From IMG/VR virus record IMGVR_UViG_3300020165_000145, positions 1 to 24,626 of that record: a DNA stretch of 24,626 nt, one strand, 5' to 3'. The notes under the pieces are model-generated. The model did no database searches, was not told the DNA's origin, and saw nothing but the letters and a program-made list of their open reading frames with translations. The position numbers and the translations under genes were made by a program. Positions 5,246 through 22,537 of the stretch are shown here, piece by piece; the first letter of the stretch is position 1, and the number at the start of each line of letters is the position of its first letter. This DNA is from a virus.

Positions 5246-5447
5246 GTTTTTCTTCTCCCATTGGATATACGTGTGATCTTTTTACATTCCAATTACCGTC
5301 CGCATAGACGCGGTATATGTATTGGCTAGCCGTGCTCAAATATACGCCAGTAATTGGTCTTTCAGCTATTCGCATTCTCATTCCTTTTTCCGTCTCAAGC
5401 CACATCTCAGCACCTTGAGGAATGTGCACTAAATCTCCTTCTTGCAT
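5235..5447 (-). CDS. Hypothetical 70-residue protein, beta-rich
   Basis: This small protein starts MQEGDLVHIPQGAEMW and continues with short strands (TGVYLSTAS, YIYRVYADGNW). This suggests a compact SH3-like barrel, as in many small phage proteins. No catalytic motif is seen. Its ATG shares one base with the groEL stop (TAATG), and GGAGG lies at the end of groEL, so its translation is tightly coupled to the chaperonin gene. Whether it acts with GroEL is unknown. Confidence 0.75.
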   Translation of the reverse strand: MQEGDLVHIPQGAEMWLETEKGMRMRIAERPITGVYLSTASQYIYRVYADGNWNVKRSHVYPMGEEKHVS

Positions 5448-7027
5448 TATTTATCCTCCGTTTGTATGATACCATAATTAGTTGTGATTAATGTTCCAGC
5501 ACAACTCGCCGCATTCTGGAGAGCGGTGATCGTCACCTTCGCTGGATCGATAACTCCCGCTTCCATCATGTTGGTCGCTTGGTTAGTTAAAAAATTCCAT
5601 CCACAGTTTGTTTCCGAATCGGACAGAACATTTTGCACAATAAGATCTGCGGACTCCCCAGAGTTTAACGCCATCTGCCTAATGGGCTCTTCGCACGCCG
5701 CTCTGATGATCGTAGCACCTAACGCCTGTTCTGTACTATTTGTCGTTACGACTAGCGAGCGTGATGCTCTAAGGAGCGCAATGCCGCCGCCGGGGACGAT
5801 TCCACCTTCTTGGGCGGAGCGGACAGCTTCAAGGGCATCTTCAATCCTATGCTTGCGCTCAGTCATTTCTACCTCGGTTGTGCCGCCAACATTGATAACC
5901 GCTACTCCGGATGACAATCTTACTACTCTTCCTTGGATGGCGTCACAAACTGATAGTGAGTCAGTTTGCTTAATCTCGCTCTTGAGTGATTCGATCTTTA
6001 CTTCCACCGCCTCGTAGTCACATGCACCACCAACGATTGTTGTGCTATACTTATTACTCTCAATACTCTTCGAAGAACCCAAGTGTGACATTCGTGTCTC
6101 GGAAAGTTTAACGCCACTCTCTCTAGTAATAAAGGTGGCGCCCGTAGATAGCGCCAAGTCTTCAAGGGTGTTGCGGCGCTCTTCTCCATAGTACGGTGCT
6201 TTGATCGCCGCAACCTTGAGAGAGCCTCTCATCGCATTCATAATTAAGGCTGCGAGGGCTTGTCCTTCTACCTCTTCTGCAACAATAATGAGTGGCCTAC
6301 TTTCTCTTGCTACCATCTCTAAGACTGGCAGCACATCTTCTACTGCTGAGATCTTATAATCTGTGACGAGGATAAGCGGATTCTCATGATACATGGTTGC
6401 GCGACGATCATCTGTAATGAACGCCCCGGCGCTGAAGCCTGAGTTGAACCGGAAGCCTTCGGTGATGTCTAGACTAGTCTCGGTTGAGCGTGACTCTTCA
6501 ATAGTAATCGAGCCATCTTGTCCAACCTTATCTAATGCTGTCGCAATAAGCTTTCCAATCGTCGAATCATTGTTAGCTGATATAGTTGCAATCTGTTCAA
6601 TATCATCGATACTGGTGATGGGAGTAGACAGGTTCTTTAGATTATTAACCACCTCTTTGGCCGCTAGGTCGATGCCACGCTGAAGCTCTGTTGGAGAGAC
6701 GCCAGACGTAACAAACCTTTGGGATTCTCTAAGGATTGCGCGCGCTAGAACCGTCGAGGTAGTCGTTCCATCGCCGGCTTCGTTGTTAGTCTCAATCGCT
6801 GCTTGGCGAATAATCTGTGCGCCGGCATTTTCAAATGGATCATCAAGGGCGACAAATTGCGCGACAGTGACACCATCTTTTGTAATGAAAGGCGTTTGTC
6901 CCTTCTCTTGTAGCAAGACATTTCGACCTCTCGGTCCAAGCGTGGAAGCTACGTTGTCTGCTAATACGTTGGCTCCTCTAATAATTTTCTGCTGTAATGT
7001 TTGGTTATCCGAATATTGTCTGGACAT
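5447..7027 (-). CDS. groEL: Chaperonin GroEL (Hsp60), phage-encoded
   Basis: The 526-residue product is a full group I chaperonin subunit, the ring-forming ATPase that folds proteins in a GroES-capped chamber. TLGPRGRNV (29-37), TKDGVTVA with D51 (E. coli D52), and the phosphate loop GDGTTT (85-90) are conserved. RIEDALEAVRSA (E. coli D398 region) and VPGGG are also present. ATP binding and hydrolysis residues therefore look intact. The C-terminus ends IIQTEDK and lacks the Gly-Gly-Met tail that lines E. coli GroEL's cavity. I prefer ATG 7027 because AAGAGG sits 5 nt upstream; a GTG at 7033 is the longer option. A perfect sigma-70 promoter precedes the gene, and groES lies about 15 kb upstream. 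Divergence from bacterial GroEL suggests a long-standing phage gene. Confidence 0.97.
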   Translation of the reverse strand: MSRQYSDNQTLQQKIIRGANVLADNVASTLGPRGRNVLLQEKGQTPFITKDGVTVAQFVALDDPFENAGAQIIRQAAIETNNEAGDGTTTSTVLARAILRESQRFVTSGVSPTELQRGIDLAAKEVVNNLKNLSTPITSIDDIEQIATISANNDSTIGKLIATALDKVGQDGSITIEESRSTETSLDITEGFRFNSGFSAGAFITDDRRATMYHENPLILVTDYKISAVEDVLPVLEMVARESRPLIIVAEEVEGQALAALIMNAMRGSLKVAAIKAPYYGEERRNTLEDLALSTGATFITRESGVKLSETRMSHLGSSKSIESNKYSTTIVGGACDYEAVEVKIESLKSEIKQTDSLSVCDAIQGRVVRLSSGVAVINVGGTTEVEMTERKHRIEDALEAVRSAQEGGIVPGGGIALLRASRSLVVTTNSTEQALGATIIRAACEEPIRQMALNSGESADLIVQNVLSDSETNCGWNFLTNQATNMMEAGVIDPAKVTITALQNAASCAGTLITTNYGIIQTEDK

Positions 7028-7051
7028 TGACACCTCTTATAGTTATTCTTT

Positions 7052-7080
7052 ATTATAGCCCCGAAACACTAAAATGTCAA
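7052..7080 (-). promoter_or_regulatory. Consensus sigma-70 promoter for groEL
   Basis: On the minus strand TTGACA (7080-7075) and TATAAT (7057-7052) are separated by exactly 17 nt, a perfect match to the host sigma-70 consensus. Transcription should start near 7045, about 18 nt before the groEL ATG. The -35 box begins 3 nt after the stop codon of the upstream 573-residue gene. It would drive groEL and the genes down to at least 2.7 kb. Confidence 0.85.
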
Positions 7081-8815: not shown

Positions 8816-9493
8816 TTAAATAATTATGTCAGCGATGCCCAATTCGACAGCTTCTTCGGCAGTTAAATAAACATTTACTTTGCGTTCAAGCATTTTCTTG
8901 ATTTGAGACTTTGTCATTTTAGTGTTGGCTGCCAAGCAACTGATATACATGTCTTGGAGTTGTTCGATTGCTTCCATCTCATTTATCATGTTGTGTAGTG
9001 ATCCATGGTTGGCGCCCAAGACCGAGTGGATCATAACACGACAATTTGCGCCAATCTTGCGTTTACCTTGTGTTCCGGCGGCCAAGATGAGTACTCCGGC
9101 TGACATTACCTTGCCCATTCCGATAGTGTGTATCTCATTATTCTCTTTCACGTTACGCATAATATCATATAACGAAAACATATCGTCAGCCGAGCCGCCA
9201 TATGTTGACACGTAAAAATCAATTGGCTTTCTTTTCTCTGGGTTTGAATTCGCGTATAGGTGATCCAAATACAGCAACCCATGAATGACCTCTGCAACTT
9301 TTTCTTCGGTTACATCACAAAATAAGCCGATGGTGTTCATCGGATCGGGCTCTTCCGCGAGCATCTCCTCGCTCAAGGAAGACGGATCGAGAATAACGAT
9401 CTTTTGGCCAGCATCTGGTGGGGCTGTGTTTTTTGGCTCTTCTGCTTCTACTTCAAGCAATGTCTTGATTGCTTTTTTGATCTCTTTAATCAT
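8816..9493 (-). CDS. clpP: ClpP-like serine protease (copy 1), catalytic Asp apparently Asn
   Basis: The 225-residue protein has the ClpP/crotonase fold. STYGGSADDM (96-105) is the oxyanion-side loop. GKVMSAGVLILAAG contains nucleophile S131, and RVMIHS contains H156. Near the C-terminus VNVYLTAEEAVELGIAD aligns with E. coli DRFLSAPEAVEYGLVD, which puts N207 where ClpP's third triad residue, Asp, is expected. A further acidic N-terminal extension of about 50 residues precedes the core. Phage ClpP-like enzymes are often prohead or virion maturation proteases, so that is a reasonable role here. It is coupled to the membrane-protein gene upstream (stop 4 nt before its ATG). A second ClpP relative lies at 15.3-15.9 kb. 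Activity is uncertain given the Asn. Confidence 0.9.
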   Translation of the reverse strand: MIKEIKKAIKTLLEVEAEEPKNTAPPDAGQKIVILDPSSLSEEMLAEEPDPMNTIGLFCDVTEEKVAEVIHGLLYLDHLYANSNPEKRKPIDFYVSTYGGSADDMFSLYDIMRNVKENNEIHTIGMGKVMSAGVLILAAGTQGKRKIGANCRVMIHSVLGANHGSLHNMINEMEAIEQLQDMYISCLAANTKMTKSQIKKMLERKVNVYLTAEEAVELGIADIII

Positions 9494-9497
9494 CTTC

Positions 9498-9911
9498 TTA
9501 GGTTCCCTCTTTGTGGATAAAGTGTTTTATGTACTCGATGCCTTCTTCATTCAAGAAGCGCATTGCAGAATCCCAATCATCGTACTCAACAAGATCACGA
9601 TAAAACTTGGGGTGCATATTAATTATCTCCCTAACCGACTTATCTTTATAAAGTTTTATCTCAGCATCAAAATTTAATTGATATGCTTTAACATTTCGCT
9701 CGCTTTCTTCCCTGAGTCGCAGTTCATTAAGGCGCATAGCTTTGGTATATTCCAAGCTCTCTACCCCTCTAACAATTGTGTACAGCGAGAGACAATGTGA
9801 AATCTTGAGCATTACAAGCCCTAGACGTATTTCCTTGAGGAAATAAAATGTTTTGCAGGTAAGATACCCGAACGCAAAAACTAACAGATATAGCCACCAA
9901 ATATGTCCCAT
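9498..9911 (-). CDS. Membrane-anchored phage protein of unknown function
   Basis: The 137-residue product begins with a strongly hydrophobic segment (WWLYLLVFAFGYLTCKTFYF) that should be a single transmembrane helix or anchor. A charged helical body follows, rich in Glu, Arg and Lys, including RLREESERN and KSVREIINM. The last part holds DWDSAMRFLNEEG and ends HKEGT. This organisation (N-terminal anchor plus soluble helical tail) recurs in phages, and I know no assigned function. It is the first gene after the terminator/promoter at 9.92-9.98 kb, and its ribosome site TTGGAG directly follows the terminator's T-tract. It is thus in a good position to be strongly expressed with clpP. Confidence 0.8.
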   Translation of the reverse strand: MGHIWWLYLLVFAFGYLTCKTFYFLKEIRLGLVMLKISHCLSLYTIVRGVESLEYTKAMRLNELRLREESERNVKAYQLNFDAEIKLYKDKSVREIINMHPKFYRDLVEYDDWDSAMRFLNEEGIEYIKHFIHKEGT

Positions 9912-9920
9912 GTATACTCC

Positions 9921-9955
9921 AAAAAATTAACCACTAGTAAAGACTAGTGGTTAAT
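9921..9955 (-). terminator. Rho-independent terminator after the acidic-protein gene
   Basis: A perfect 12-bp inverted repeat (9926-9937 with 9944-9955, arms ATTAACCACTAG and CTAGTGGTTAAT) encloses a 6-nt loop. On the minus strand it is followed by a run of T at 9926-9921. This is the classic intrinsic terminator layout for transcripts ending after the acidic-protein gene, although the stem is only moderately GC-rich. Confidence 0.85.
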
Positions 9956-9984
9956 ATTATAACAGGCTCGATGTCTTTTGTCAA
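9956..9984 (-). promoter_or_regulatory. Perfect extended -10 sigma-70 promoter overlapping the terminator
   Basis: TTGACA (9984-9979), a 17-nt spacer and TATAAT (9961-9956) form a perfect consensus. The -10 is preceded by TGT, giving an extended -10 element. The -35 starts 1 nt after the stop codon of the acidic-protein gene. Transcription should begin near 9949, inside the 5' arm of the terminator hairpin, so transcripts from this promoter lack half of the stem and should escape it. It would drive the membrane protein, clpP and the 573-residue gene. Confidence 0.85.
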
Positions 9985-9985
9985 G

Positions 9986-10594
9986 TTATTTAGTGAGTCT
10001 CTTCATGATTCTCTCAGCAAGCTGATTGACAATCTCTTCCTTCTTGCTCTCAGCTTGAAGGCGCTCAGCGACACGGCGTGCCACCTCTGCGACGACATCA
10101 TCGTCATTTTTTCCGACAACTTCTTCTTTTTCTTCTTCGCCTTCCATCATTGGCTCTTCGTCGGGTAGCTCGGTATCACCTCCTTCGAGTTCCGCGTCCA
10201 TTGCCATTTCTGGTTCTTCTGGCTCCAAGTCCATCTCGCCTTCAGCCTCTCCTTCGCCACCCATTGCAGCGCGGAGTTTATCGGCCAAATCGATAATTGC
10301 TTGTGCTTCATCGTCAGAAAGCTCCATGTCACCTTCTGGTTCAGCATCTAAAGCTGGTTCGTCGTCCATTGCTGGCTCGTCGTCCATGGGTAATTCGTCA
10401 ACAGGGGCTTCTTCCGCACCCATATCAGGTGGACCCATGTCCATTTCTTCTTCGTCGTCCATTTCATCATCGCGAGCAGCGGGTGCTTTTCCGTACCCCA
10501 TCTCTTGAATCTTCTCCTCGCCAAGCGGACGCATGCTAGCGAGTTTCATAAAGCGGCGAAGTTCGCCCTCTGTTAGTAAAGTTTTACGAGCCAT
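9986..10594 (-). CDS. Highly acidic low-complexity phage protein
   Basis: The 202-residue product starts MARKTLLTEGELRRFMKLAS, a motif-like N-terminus that I have seen in phage proteins near structural genes. It then becomes extremely rich in Asp, Glu, Met, Pro and Ala (for example DDEMDDEEEMDMGPPDM), with short near-repeats of the type MDDEPAMDDEPALDAEP. The last 40 residues are a charged amphipathic helix ending AERIMKRLTK. Such anionic proteins in phages can be scaffold or prohead-core components, or DNA mimics; neither is shown here. AAGGAG precedes the ATG. An intrinsic terminator follows its stop, and the preceding 64-nt gap holds no clear consensus promoter. Confidence 0.75.
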   Translation of the reverse strand: MARKTLLTEGELRRFMKLASMRPLGEEKIQEMGYGKAPAARDDEMDDEEEMDMGPPDMGAEEAPVDELPMDDEPAMDDEPALDAEPEGDMELSDDEAQAIIDLADKLRAAMGGEGEAEGEMDLEPEEPEMAMDAELEGGDTELPDEEPMMEGEEEKEEVVGKNDDDVVAEVARRVAERLQAESKKEEIVNQLAERIMKRLTK

Positions 10595-10658: not shown

Positions 10659-10919
10659 CTAAAATTCAAAACAACTTAAAATATTAGTGTTTTTAATCTT
10701 CCCAACTGCTTTCGTTTCTATCTGTTTTACTCTTGCAAATGATATGCCAGAGCGTTCAGCAATTTCACGTAAAGTCATTGGTCCGTTTTCATAAATAGAT
10801 ATCAAAGCACAATTATGCTCTTTTTTAAAATCTATCCACATTCGACATTCTTTATTAGGGCATGCCGTTTTTAGTTCTCTGCATTTTCGAGAACAAGATA
10901 GTAGACCGTCTTTAGTCAT
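10659..10919 (-). CDS. Sigma-70 region 4-like HTH protein with Cys-rich N-terminus
   Basis: The 86-residue protein has a helix-turn-helix that is very close to sigma-70 region 4.2, the part that reads -35 boxes: MTLREIAERSGISFARVKQI, continuing ETKAVGKIK (48-76). Residues 1-40 are unlike region 4.1 and carry five cysteines (C9, C13, C20, C25, C37), which could bind a metal or iron-sulfur cluster. It lacks regions 2 and 3, so it is not a full sigma factor. It could act as a regulator that binds core polymerase or competes with host sigma. Its ATG overlaps the upstream gene (ATGA). It lies in the middle operon, before the 64-nt gap and the acidic-protein gene. Confidence 0.8.
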   Translation of the reverse strand: MTKDGLLSCSRKCRELKTACPNKECRMWIDFKKEHNCALISIYENGPMTLREIAERSGISFARVKQIETKAVGKIKNTNILSCFEF

Positions 10920-15266: not shown

Positions 15267-15872
15267 TCACTTAAAGCTGAATTGAATCTTTGTTTCTATT
15301 TTTAATTCTGGGACACGTACCTCATTCGCGAGATTGTGCTTTTTGCATTCATTAGAATCTAAAAACCAATCAGCGTGACCCTTATCGTGCACAATATCAA
15401 GAAAGTATTCCTCGTGGTGGCCACAATTAACAGCCATCATGCGATAAATCTTCTGGTTAAGGCGGTCAGTTTCCTCCGCGCTCACTTTAACCTCTTCTAC
15501 TTTGCCCCATGCCATCGAACTAACGTCGTGAATCATTAGAGTCGCGTCGGGATCCATATATCGCATCCCTTCCTTGCCGAAACTAAAGAGTATGGCGCCA
15601 CATGACATAGCTTTGCCCTGCGCAATTGTTGCTACTGGAATTCGGCTGTGTCTGATGTCGGATATCATTGACATGAGGCTGTACACCTGCCCACCGTAGC
15701 TGTCAATAACGATGGGCACCACTGGCTGTCCGGTGTTCTGTGCTTTCGACATCAGCGAGGAGAAAGACTTCGCTGCGACTTGATCAAATTTGTTAACGCG
15801 GATTACAATCGGCAAATCATCAATGAGCTTAGGTTCTTTTAATAATGGACTAAACGTCTTAAGTATATTCAT
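15267..15872 (-). CDS. clpP: ClpP-like serine protease (copy 2), intact triad
   Basis: The 201-residue protein is a second ClpP-fold protease. IDSYGGQVYS (56-65) is the substrate-strand loop. GKAMSCGAILFSFG carries nucleophile S90 and LMIHD carries H115. A third position fits D168 in HADWFLDSNE, in register with E. coli D-R-F-L. It is thus a better candidate for a working protease than the copy at 8.8-9.5 kb. The low identity of the two copies, judged by eye, argues against a recent duplication. It starts 6 nt after the end of dnaE, with AGGATAAG as a weak ribosome site. ClpP acts with a Clp ATPase in bacteria; no such ATPase is visible in the window. Confidence 0.9.
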   Translation of the reverse strand: MNILKTFSPLLKEPKLIDDLPIVIRVNKFDQVAAKSFSSLMSKAQNTGQPVVPIVIDSYGGQVYSLMSMISDIRHSRIPVATIAQGKAMSCGAILFSFGKEGMRYMDPDATLMIHDVSSMAWGKVEEVKVSAEETDRLNQKIYRMMAVNCGHHEEYFLDIVHDKGHADWFLDSNECKKHNLANEVRVPELKIETKIQFSFK

Positions 15873-22258: not shown

Positions 22259-22537
22259 TTAAGAAATTATACCTAATATATAGTTCTCTAAAATAACATT
22301 GATGCTTTTGTTGCCAAAGTTAATCTCCTCTATCATCGTCCTATCAACAACTACCTGGGTTCCTTTCTGTAGCGATTCTGATAGCTTGACGTCTTGTGAT
22401 GTGGCTACTACGGTGGCCGTTGTGTATCTTTCTTCTGTTACCTTAAAGTCATCCGGCAGCAATATACCTGTAGTGGTCTCCTTTGTGTCGGGGGCTCCGA
22501 GTTCGATTTGAATGTGTCTATTTAGTGGTTTAAACAT
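22259..22537 (-). CDS. groES: Co-chaperonin GroES
   Basis: The 92-residue product caps GroEL rings and sets the folding chamber. FKPLNRHIQIEL (2-13), the mobile loop TTTGILLPDD, the strand YTTATVVA, and the end ENYILGIIS match the usual GroES order and length (about 95-97). The mobile-loop hydrophobic triplet is ILL, like host GroES IVL. GAGGA precedes the ATG, and the ribonucleotide reductase gene ends 12 nt upstream. A phage-encoded GroEL lies at 5.4-7.0 kb, so the two could form a matched pair rather than capping the host GroEL as T4 gp31 does. Confidence 0.92.
   Translation of the reverse strand: MFKPLNRHIQIELGAPDTKETTTGILLPDDFKVTEERYTTATVVATSQDVKLSESLQKGTQVVVDRTMIEEINFGNKSINVILENYILGIIS

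Follow-up and report, generated by a model that had tools for sequence, protein, structure and literature searches.

The filamentous phage M13 carries a terminator after gene VIII and a promoter for gene III. As read from the M13 record (NC_003287), the gene VIII/gene III junction consists of a promoter-like TCGAAA-17-TACAAT (9/12), one base, a hairpin with a perfect 9-bp stem and a 4-nt loop, a U-tract, GGAG and ATG. At the Escherichia coli frd-ampC junction, as outlined where PMC6045580 cites Grundstrom and Jaurin (1982), the promoter of the next gene is followed directly by the upstream operon's terminator. This promoter is located within the upstream gene; the RNA made from it includes the complete hairpin and is attenuated by it. 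In Burkholderia, the terminator TERM 264 between nlpD1 and penA eliminated reporter expression when the promoter was centred 134 bp upstream of it, but expression was high when that promoter was centred at only 24 bp (PMC6045580). In addition, E. coli polymerase that has terminated in vitro stays on the DNA and can start again from promoters close by, whether upstream or downstream (PMC6978380, PMC11347151).

A junction with the same order and spacing as that of M13 occurs in the viral contig analysed here (the window, 24,626 nucleotides; Table 1). All genes around it are located on the minus strand and read leftward, and the 74-nt gap between the 202-aa gene and the 137-aa gene is wholly filled by the stop codon-proximal base, promoter, hairpin, T-run, GGAG and the five bases that precede the ATG (9911). 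The promoter matches the hexamers at 12/12 positions and, with its 17-nt spacer and TGT, belongs to the extended sigma-70 type. The initial annotation had described these elements adjoining the hairpin at the correct coordinates, leaving the strand unstated. It had also given a perfect stem with a T-run, which holds; the proposed 12 bp with a 6-nt loop are better read as 13 bp with a 4-nt loop, as one extra closing pair can form.

Table 1. Features of the promoter-hairpin junction and its flanking genes (window coordinates).
Feature	Position	Strand	Remarks
-35 element TTGACA	9984-9979	-	one base past the upstream gene's stop codon (9986-9988)
17-nt spacer ending in TGT (extended -10) and -10 element TATAAT	9978-9956 (-10: 9961-9956)	-	
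Hairpin ATTAACCACTAGT-CTTT-ACTAGTGGTTAAT	9955-9926	-	13 bp, 4-nt loop
Hairpin parts	5' arm 9955-9943; loop 9942-9939; 3' arm 9938-9926	-	
U-tract TTTTTT	9926-9921	-	predicted RNA 3' ends
Shine-Dalgarno sequence GGAG	9920-9917	-	directly after the U-tract; kept in many relatives
Predicted transcription start	9949/9948	-	within the 5' arm; from promoter geometry
137-aa membrane protein	9498..9911	-	first gene of the downstream unit; always preceded by the promoter-terminator unit
ClpP-like head maturation protease	8816..9493	-	next gene of the downstream unit
Acidic 202-aa protein	9986..10594	-	last gene of the upstream unit; conserved in relatives

The isolated hairpin folds with -15.7 kcal/mol, compared to -3.7 +/- 1.9 kcal/mol for shuffled sequences (z -6.5). 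In first-order Markov versions of the window, a perfect stem of at least 10 bp with a U-tract is expected 0.005 times per strand, and the same value was obtained for a perfect, 17-spaced 12/12 promoter; at 9984-9921 both rare motifs stand back to back. The hairpin is the sole convincing intergenic terminator in the window. As its stem holds only four G-C pairs, termination may be incomplete. Rfam covariance models gave no match in the window.

The window has two further perfect promoters (7080-7052 and 13541-13513) and a near-perfect one (14535-14507), none of which is accompanied by a hairpin. The first of these, on the minus strand, is located right before groEL (ORF 5447-7033) and is overlapped by a promoter-like site (11/12) on the opposite strand at 7027-7056. 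The string at 13541-13513 (minus strand) lies within a gene for a Dam-like methylase, and similar strings occur in the relatives G001, G003 and G006; it may represent conserved codons rather than a promoter. Two related records, G012 (195 kb) and G001 (78 kb), contain other terminator-like hairpins, none of which adjoins a promoter better than 9/12 except that of the unit itself. In lambda, T7 and the first 50 kb of T4, the layout was not found with a promoter better than 8/12.

To follow the junction in related phages, as the initial annotation had suggested, IMG/VR viral contigs were searched with the 137-aa protein. All 31 loci of the first round possess a promoter and a hairpin with a T-run in front of the gene. 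In a wider search with an alignment of 24 sequences, 26-76% identical to the protein of the window, the unit precedes the gene in all distinct upstream regions. Together with loci identified by a DNA pattern, the loci from the protein searches yielded 90 distinct versions. TTGAC occurs in 90/90 versions; TTGAC and a -10 match were required for this list, so that the promoter is biased there, whereas the protein-found orthologues are free of that bias and have TTGAC too. The spacer is 17 nt long in every version, though 16-18 nt were allowed, and TGn precedes the -10 element in 51 of them. Stems comprise 9-16 bp and loops 3-14 nt, and the nine nucleotides after the stem contain 7.4 T on average in the relatives, the U-tract being poor in a few versions (e.g., L205 and L067). 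Control viral promoters of the form TTGACA...TATAAT...AACCAC in front of other genes displayed a mean fold of -4.9 kcal/mol (n=70) as opposed to -15.4 kcal/mol for the family (n=77). Nine controls fold well, among them L132, which has the family layout and was missed by the filter. Another of the nine lies on the apparently unrelated viral contig L084, where a perfect promoter near 1939-1860 (minus strand) is followed by a long hairpin, which starts with AACCAC, and by a T-rich tail; it may be an independent instance of the promoter-hairpin layout.

Most records (31-203 kb) contain the AACCAC-N-GTGGTT repeat in one copy, which rules out an element scattered through the genome; record G012 has a second, short copy. 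In L057 (3530-3615), the most divergent among the loci found through the neighbouring protease, a hairpin with a T-run (GAGGATG...CATCCTC with TTTTTATTT) occupies the same place next to a poor promoter match (CATAAT), and this unit is perhaps losing, or has changed, its promoter. Among cultured phages no relative was found by DNA, nor for the 137-aa protein or its 573-aa neighbour. From gene content and the contig set, we read the contigs as marine.

The usual geometry, with +1 seven to eight bases past the -10 element, predicts the start of transcription in the 5' arm of the window hairpin, in agreement with the start near 9949 that had been proposed before, and in the 5' arm or the loop in nearly all versions. 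The resulting truncation of the RNA would strongly weaken the fold. For the window, the values are -16.1 kcal/mol for the full hairpin, -7.7 kcal/mol for RNA from 9949 and -4.5 kcal/mol for RNA from 9948. Averaged over the versions, the full hairpin reaches -15.4 kcal/mol, compared to -5.5 (+7) and -4.3 kcal/mol (+8) for the shortened forms, and in many versions the entire stem is gone from the +7 RNA (0.0 kcal/mol). However, six of the 90 versions (L011, L045, L059, L174, L192 and L205) have a hairpin that is either displaced by 3-4 nt or more stable, and their truncated RNA is still predicted to fold with about -12 to -19 kcal/mol. This indicates that either another start site is used there or escape does not strictly depend on losing half the stem. 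By analogy to the penA reporter (PMC6045580), nearness of the terminator to the promoter may be enough for escape.

Judged from these sequence features, the unit is probably a terminator for upstream RNA combined with a promoter that is immune to it, and this is the best-supported reading of the junction. Polymerases arriving from the upstream replication and nucleotide genes would transcribe the whole inverted repeat, the read-through RNA would fold into the hairpin, and polymerase would be released at the U-tract. The adjoining promoter would start RNA at about 9948-9949, and this RNA, without the outer half of the stem and the base beside the U-tract, would escape termination and express the membrane protein, the ClpP-like protease and the following genes. 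The 74 nt between two genes would in this way accommodate termination, initiation and ribosome binding. The earlier proposal that read-through RNA stops and the promoter's own RNA escapes is supported by the conserved RNA stem (see below) with its U-tract, the fixed promoter and the weaker predicted fold of the truncated RNA, but not in its general form, as a stable truncated hairpin is predicted in six versions. That the junction acts as a compact insulator, ending one operon and beginning the next, we infer with good reason.

Compared to the known systems, the unit shares its order and spacing with M13, which is, however, an unrelated small single-stranded DNA phage with a weak promoter match and no sequence similarity, whereas in the present family, which consists of large double-stranded DNA phages, the promoter is near consensus and the unit conserved. 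The likeness to nlpD1-penA lies in a promoter immediately upstream of a terminator that escapes it, as determined by reporters; there, however, the natural promoter arises by mutation in resistant isolates and does not form a conserved unit (PMC6045580). The part of the literature covered here contained no description of this promoter-terminator layout, or of a conserved unit of its kind, in tailed phages. The layout itself is already present in M13 gene VIII/III, and the idea behind the likely mechanism is common to ampC/frd and penA/nlpD1.

A different use of the same elements would be a relay in which polymerase releases the upstream RNA at 9921-9926, remains on the DNA, slides back by about 28-60 bp and restarts at the promoter. 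The stop and predicted start sites of the unit are only about 28 bp apart, which resembles the recycling described for E. coli polymerase; that recycling was, however, shown in vitro and on templates other than such overlapping units, and we consider the relay unlikely. If true, upstream transcription would be converted to downstream transcription with a fresh 5' end, rather than merely being insulated from it.

The inverted repeat might also function as DNA, i.e., as an operator at which a repressor dimer bound to the dyad AACCACT/AGTGGTT over the start site switches the promoter off. The dyad centre near the predicted start is a classic operator position, one copy per genome would suit a dedicated regulator, and AACC/GGTT is almost invariant in 85 of the 90 versions, a core unusually constant for a terminator. 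The covariation of stems anchored on AACC/GGTT (85 units, 72 distinct) points, however, in another direction. At the seventh stem pair, T-A (40), C-G (25) and T-G (18) alternate with only two unpaired cases, and the following pair is A-T (31), G-C (23), G-T (10) or unpaired (9); these counts refer to sequences and not to independent events, and at least 21 and at least 19 changes, respectively, fall on the protein tree. Mispairs inside the stems are G.U in 42 cases and A.C in one. Because a G.T on one strand reads as A.C on its complement, protein binding to double-stranded DNA would not favour either kind, and the repeat lacks the strand-independent symmetry of a repressor operator; the excess of G.U indicates a hairpin in the coding-strand RNA. 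Arm and loop lengths also vary widely, the one-sided U-tract would be unneeded, and in several versions (L054, L059, L205, L256 and L048) the stem sequence has been replaced, e.g., by GAAGAGGCCGC... in L059, ...GGCCGCTG... in L205, ATAATGGTCAC... in L256 and AAAATGACC... in L048, while promoter, hairpin and position were retained. We regard an operator as improbable. Together these patterns point to conservation of the hairpin as a coding-strand RNA stem, and this apparent selection, with a stable G+C-containing hairpin and a U-tract directly 3' of it, characterizes an intrinsic terminator.

If the promoter's own RNA were terminated at the hairpin and some signal allowed passage, as in ampC-type leaders, the unit would be an attenuator. 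Promoter and terminator are adjacent and in the same orientation, and the truncated hairpins that persist in six versions would be compatible with this reading. However, RNA from the predicted start would lack the base of the stem in the window and in most versions, and the whole stem in many, so that a complete hairpin in the promoter's own RNA, as at ampC, would be possible in just those 6/90; moreover, the junction is too short to hold a leader that forms alternative structures. We regard an attenuator as quite improbable. We consider it very improbable that the hairpin, instead of being a terminator, serves RNA processing or stabilization, e.g., as an RNase III site or a protective 5' hairpin. 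Such a role would agree with the conserved RNA stem, but nearly all versions have a U-tract after the stem, little of the hairpin would remain in RNA made from the adjacent promoter, and Rfam offers no support; in addition, RNase III sites are usually longer than stems of 9-16 bp. That a good promoter and a hairpin are neighbours by chance, for which nothing speaks beyond the base rate of such motifs, is refuted by the conservation of 90 versions with covariation and by the tiny chance expectation.

The genes upstream of the unit include those for DNA polymerase III alpha, ribonucleotide reductase, dUTPase, Dam methylase, IMP dehydrogenase, thioredoxin and a small sigma-70 region-4-like protein, and among the downstream genes are those for the ClpP-like head maturation protease and GroEL, the latter with its own perfect promoter. 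The unit is therefore located at the border between replication/metabolism genes and head-assembly genes, which may also be a border of timing, and its purpose would be independent control of the two gene groups. The 137-aa membrane protein at the start of the downstream group has no Pfam or PHROG match. The second gene upstream of the unit (10659-10919, minus strand) encodes an 86-aa Cys-rich protein that contains a sigma-70 region-4-like helix-turn-helix (Pfam E 2.5e-8); this protein is conserved (51-100%) in nearly all related loci and is a candidate regulator of the TTGACA promoters. The window further encodes two different ClpP-like proteases (15267-15872 and 8816-9493, minus strand), and its genes for GroES-like (22259-22537) and GroEL proteins are about 15 kb apart.

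The unit would represent a minimal natural part in which, within less than 75 nt, one transcription unit ends and the next begins, and it has been retained at a single fixed position in diverse uncultured viral contigs without a close cultured relative. Its 90 natural variants may serve as a test set for the rules by which a promoter escapes an overlapping terminator, and for polymerase recycling at stop/start pairs.
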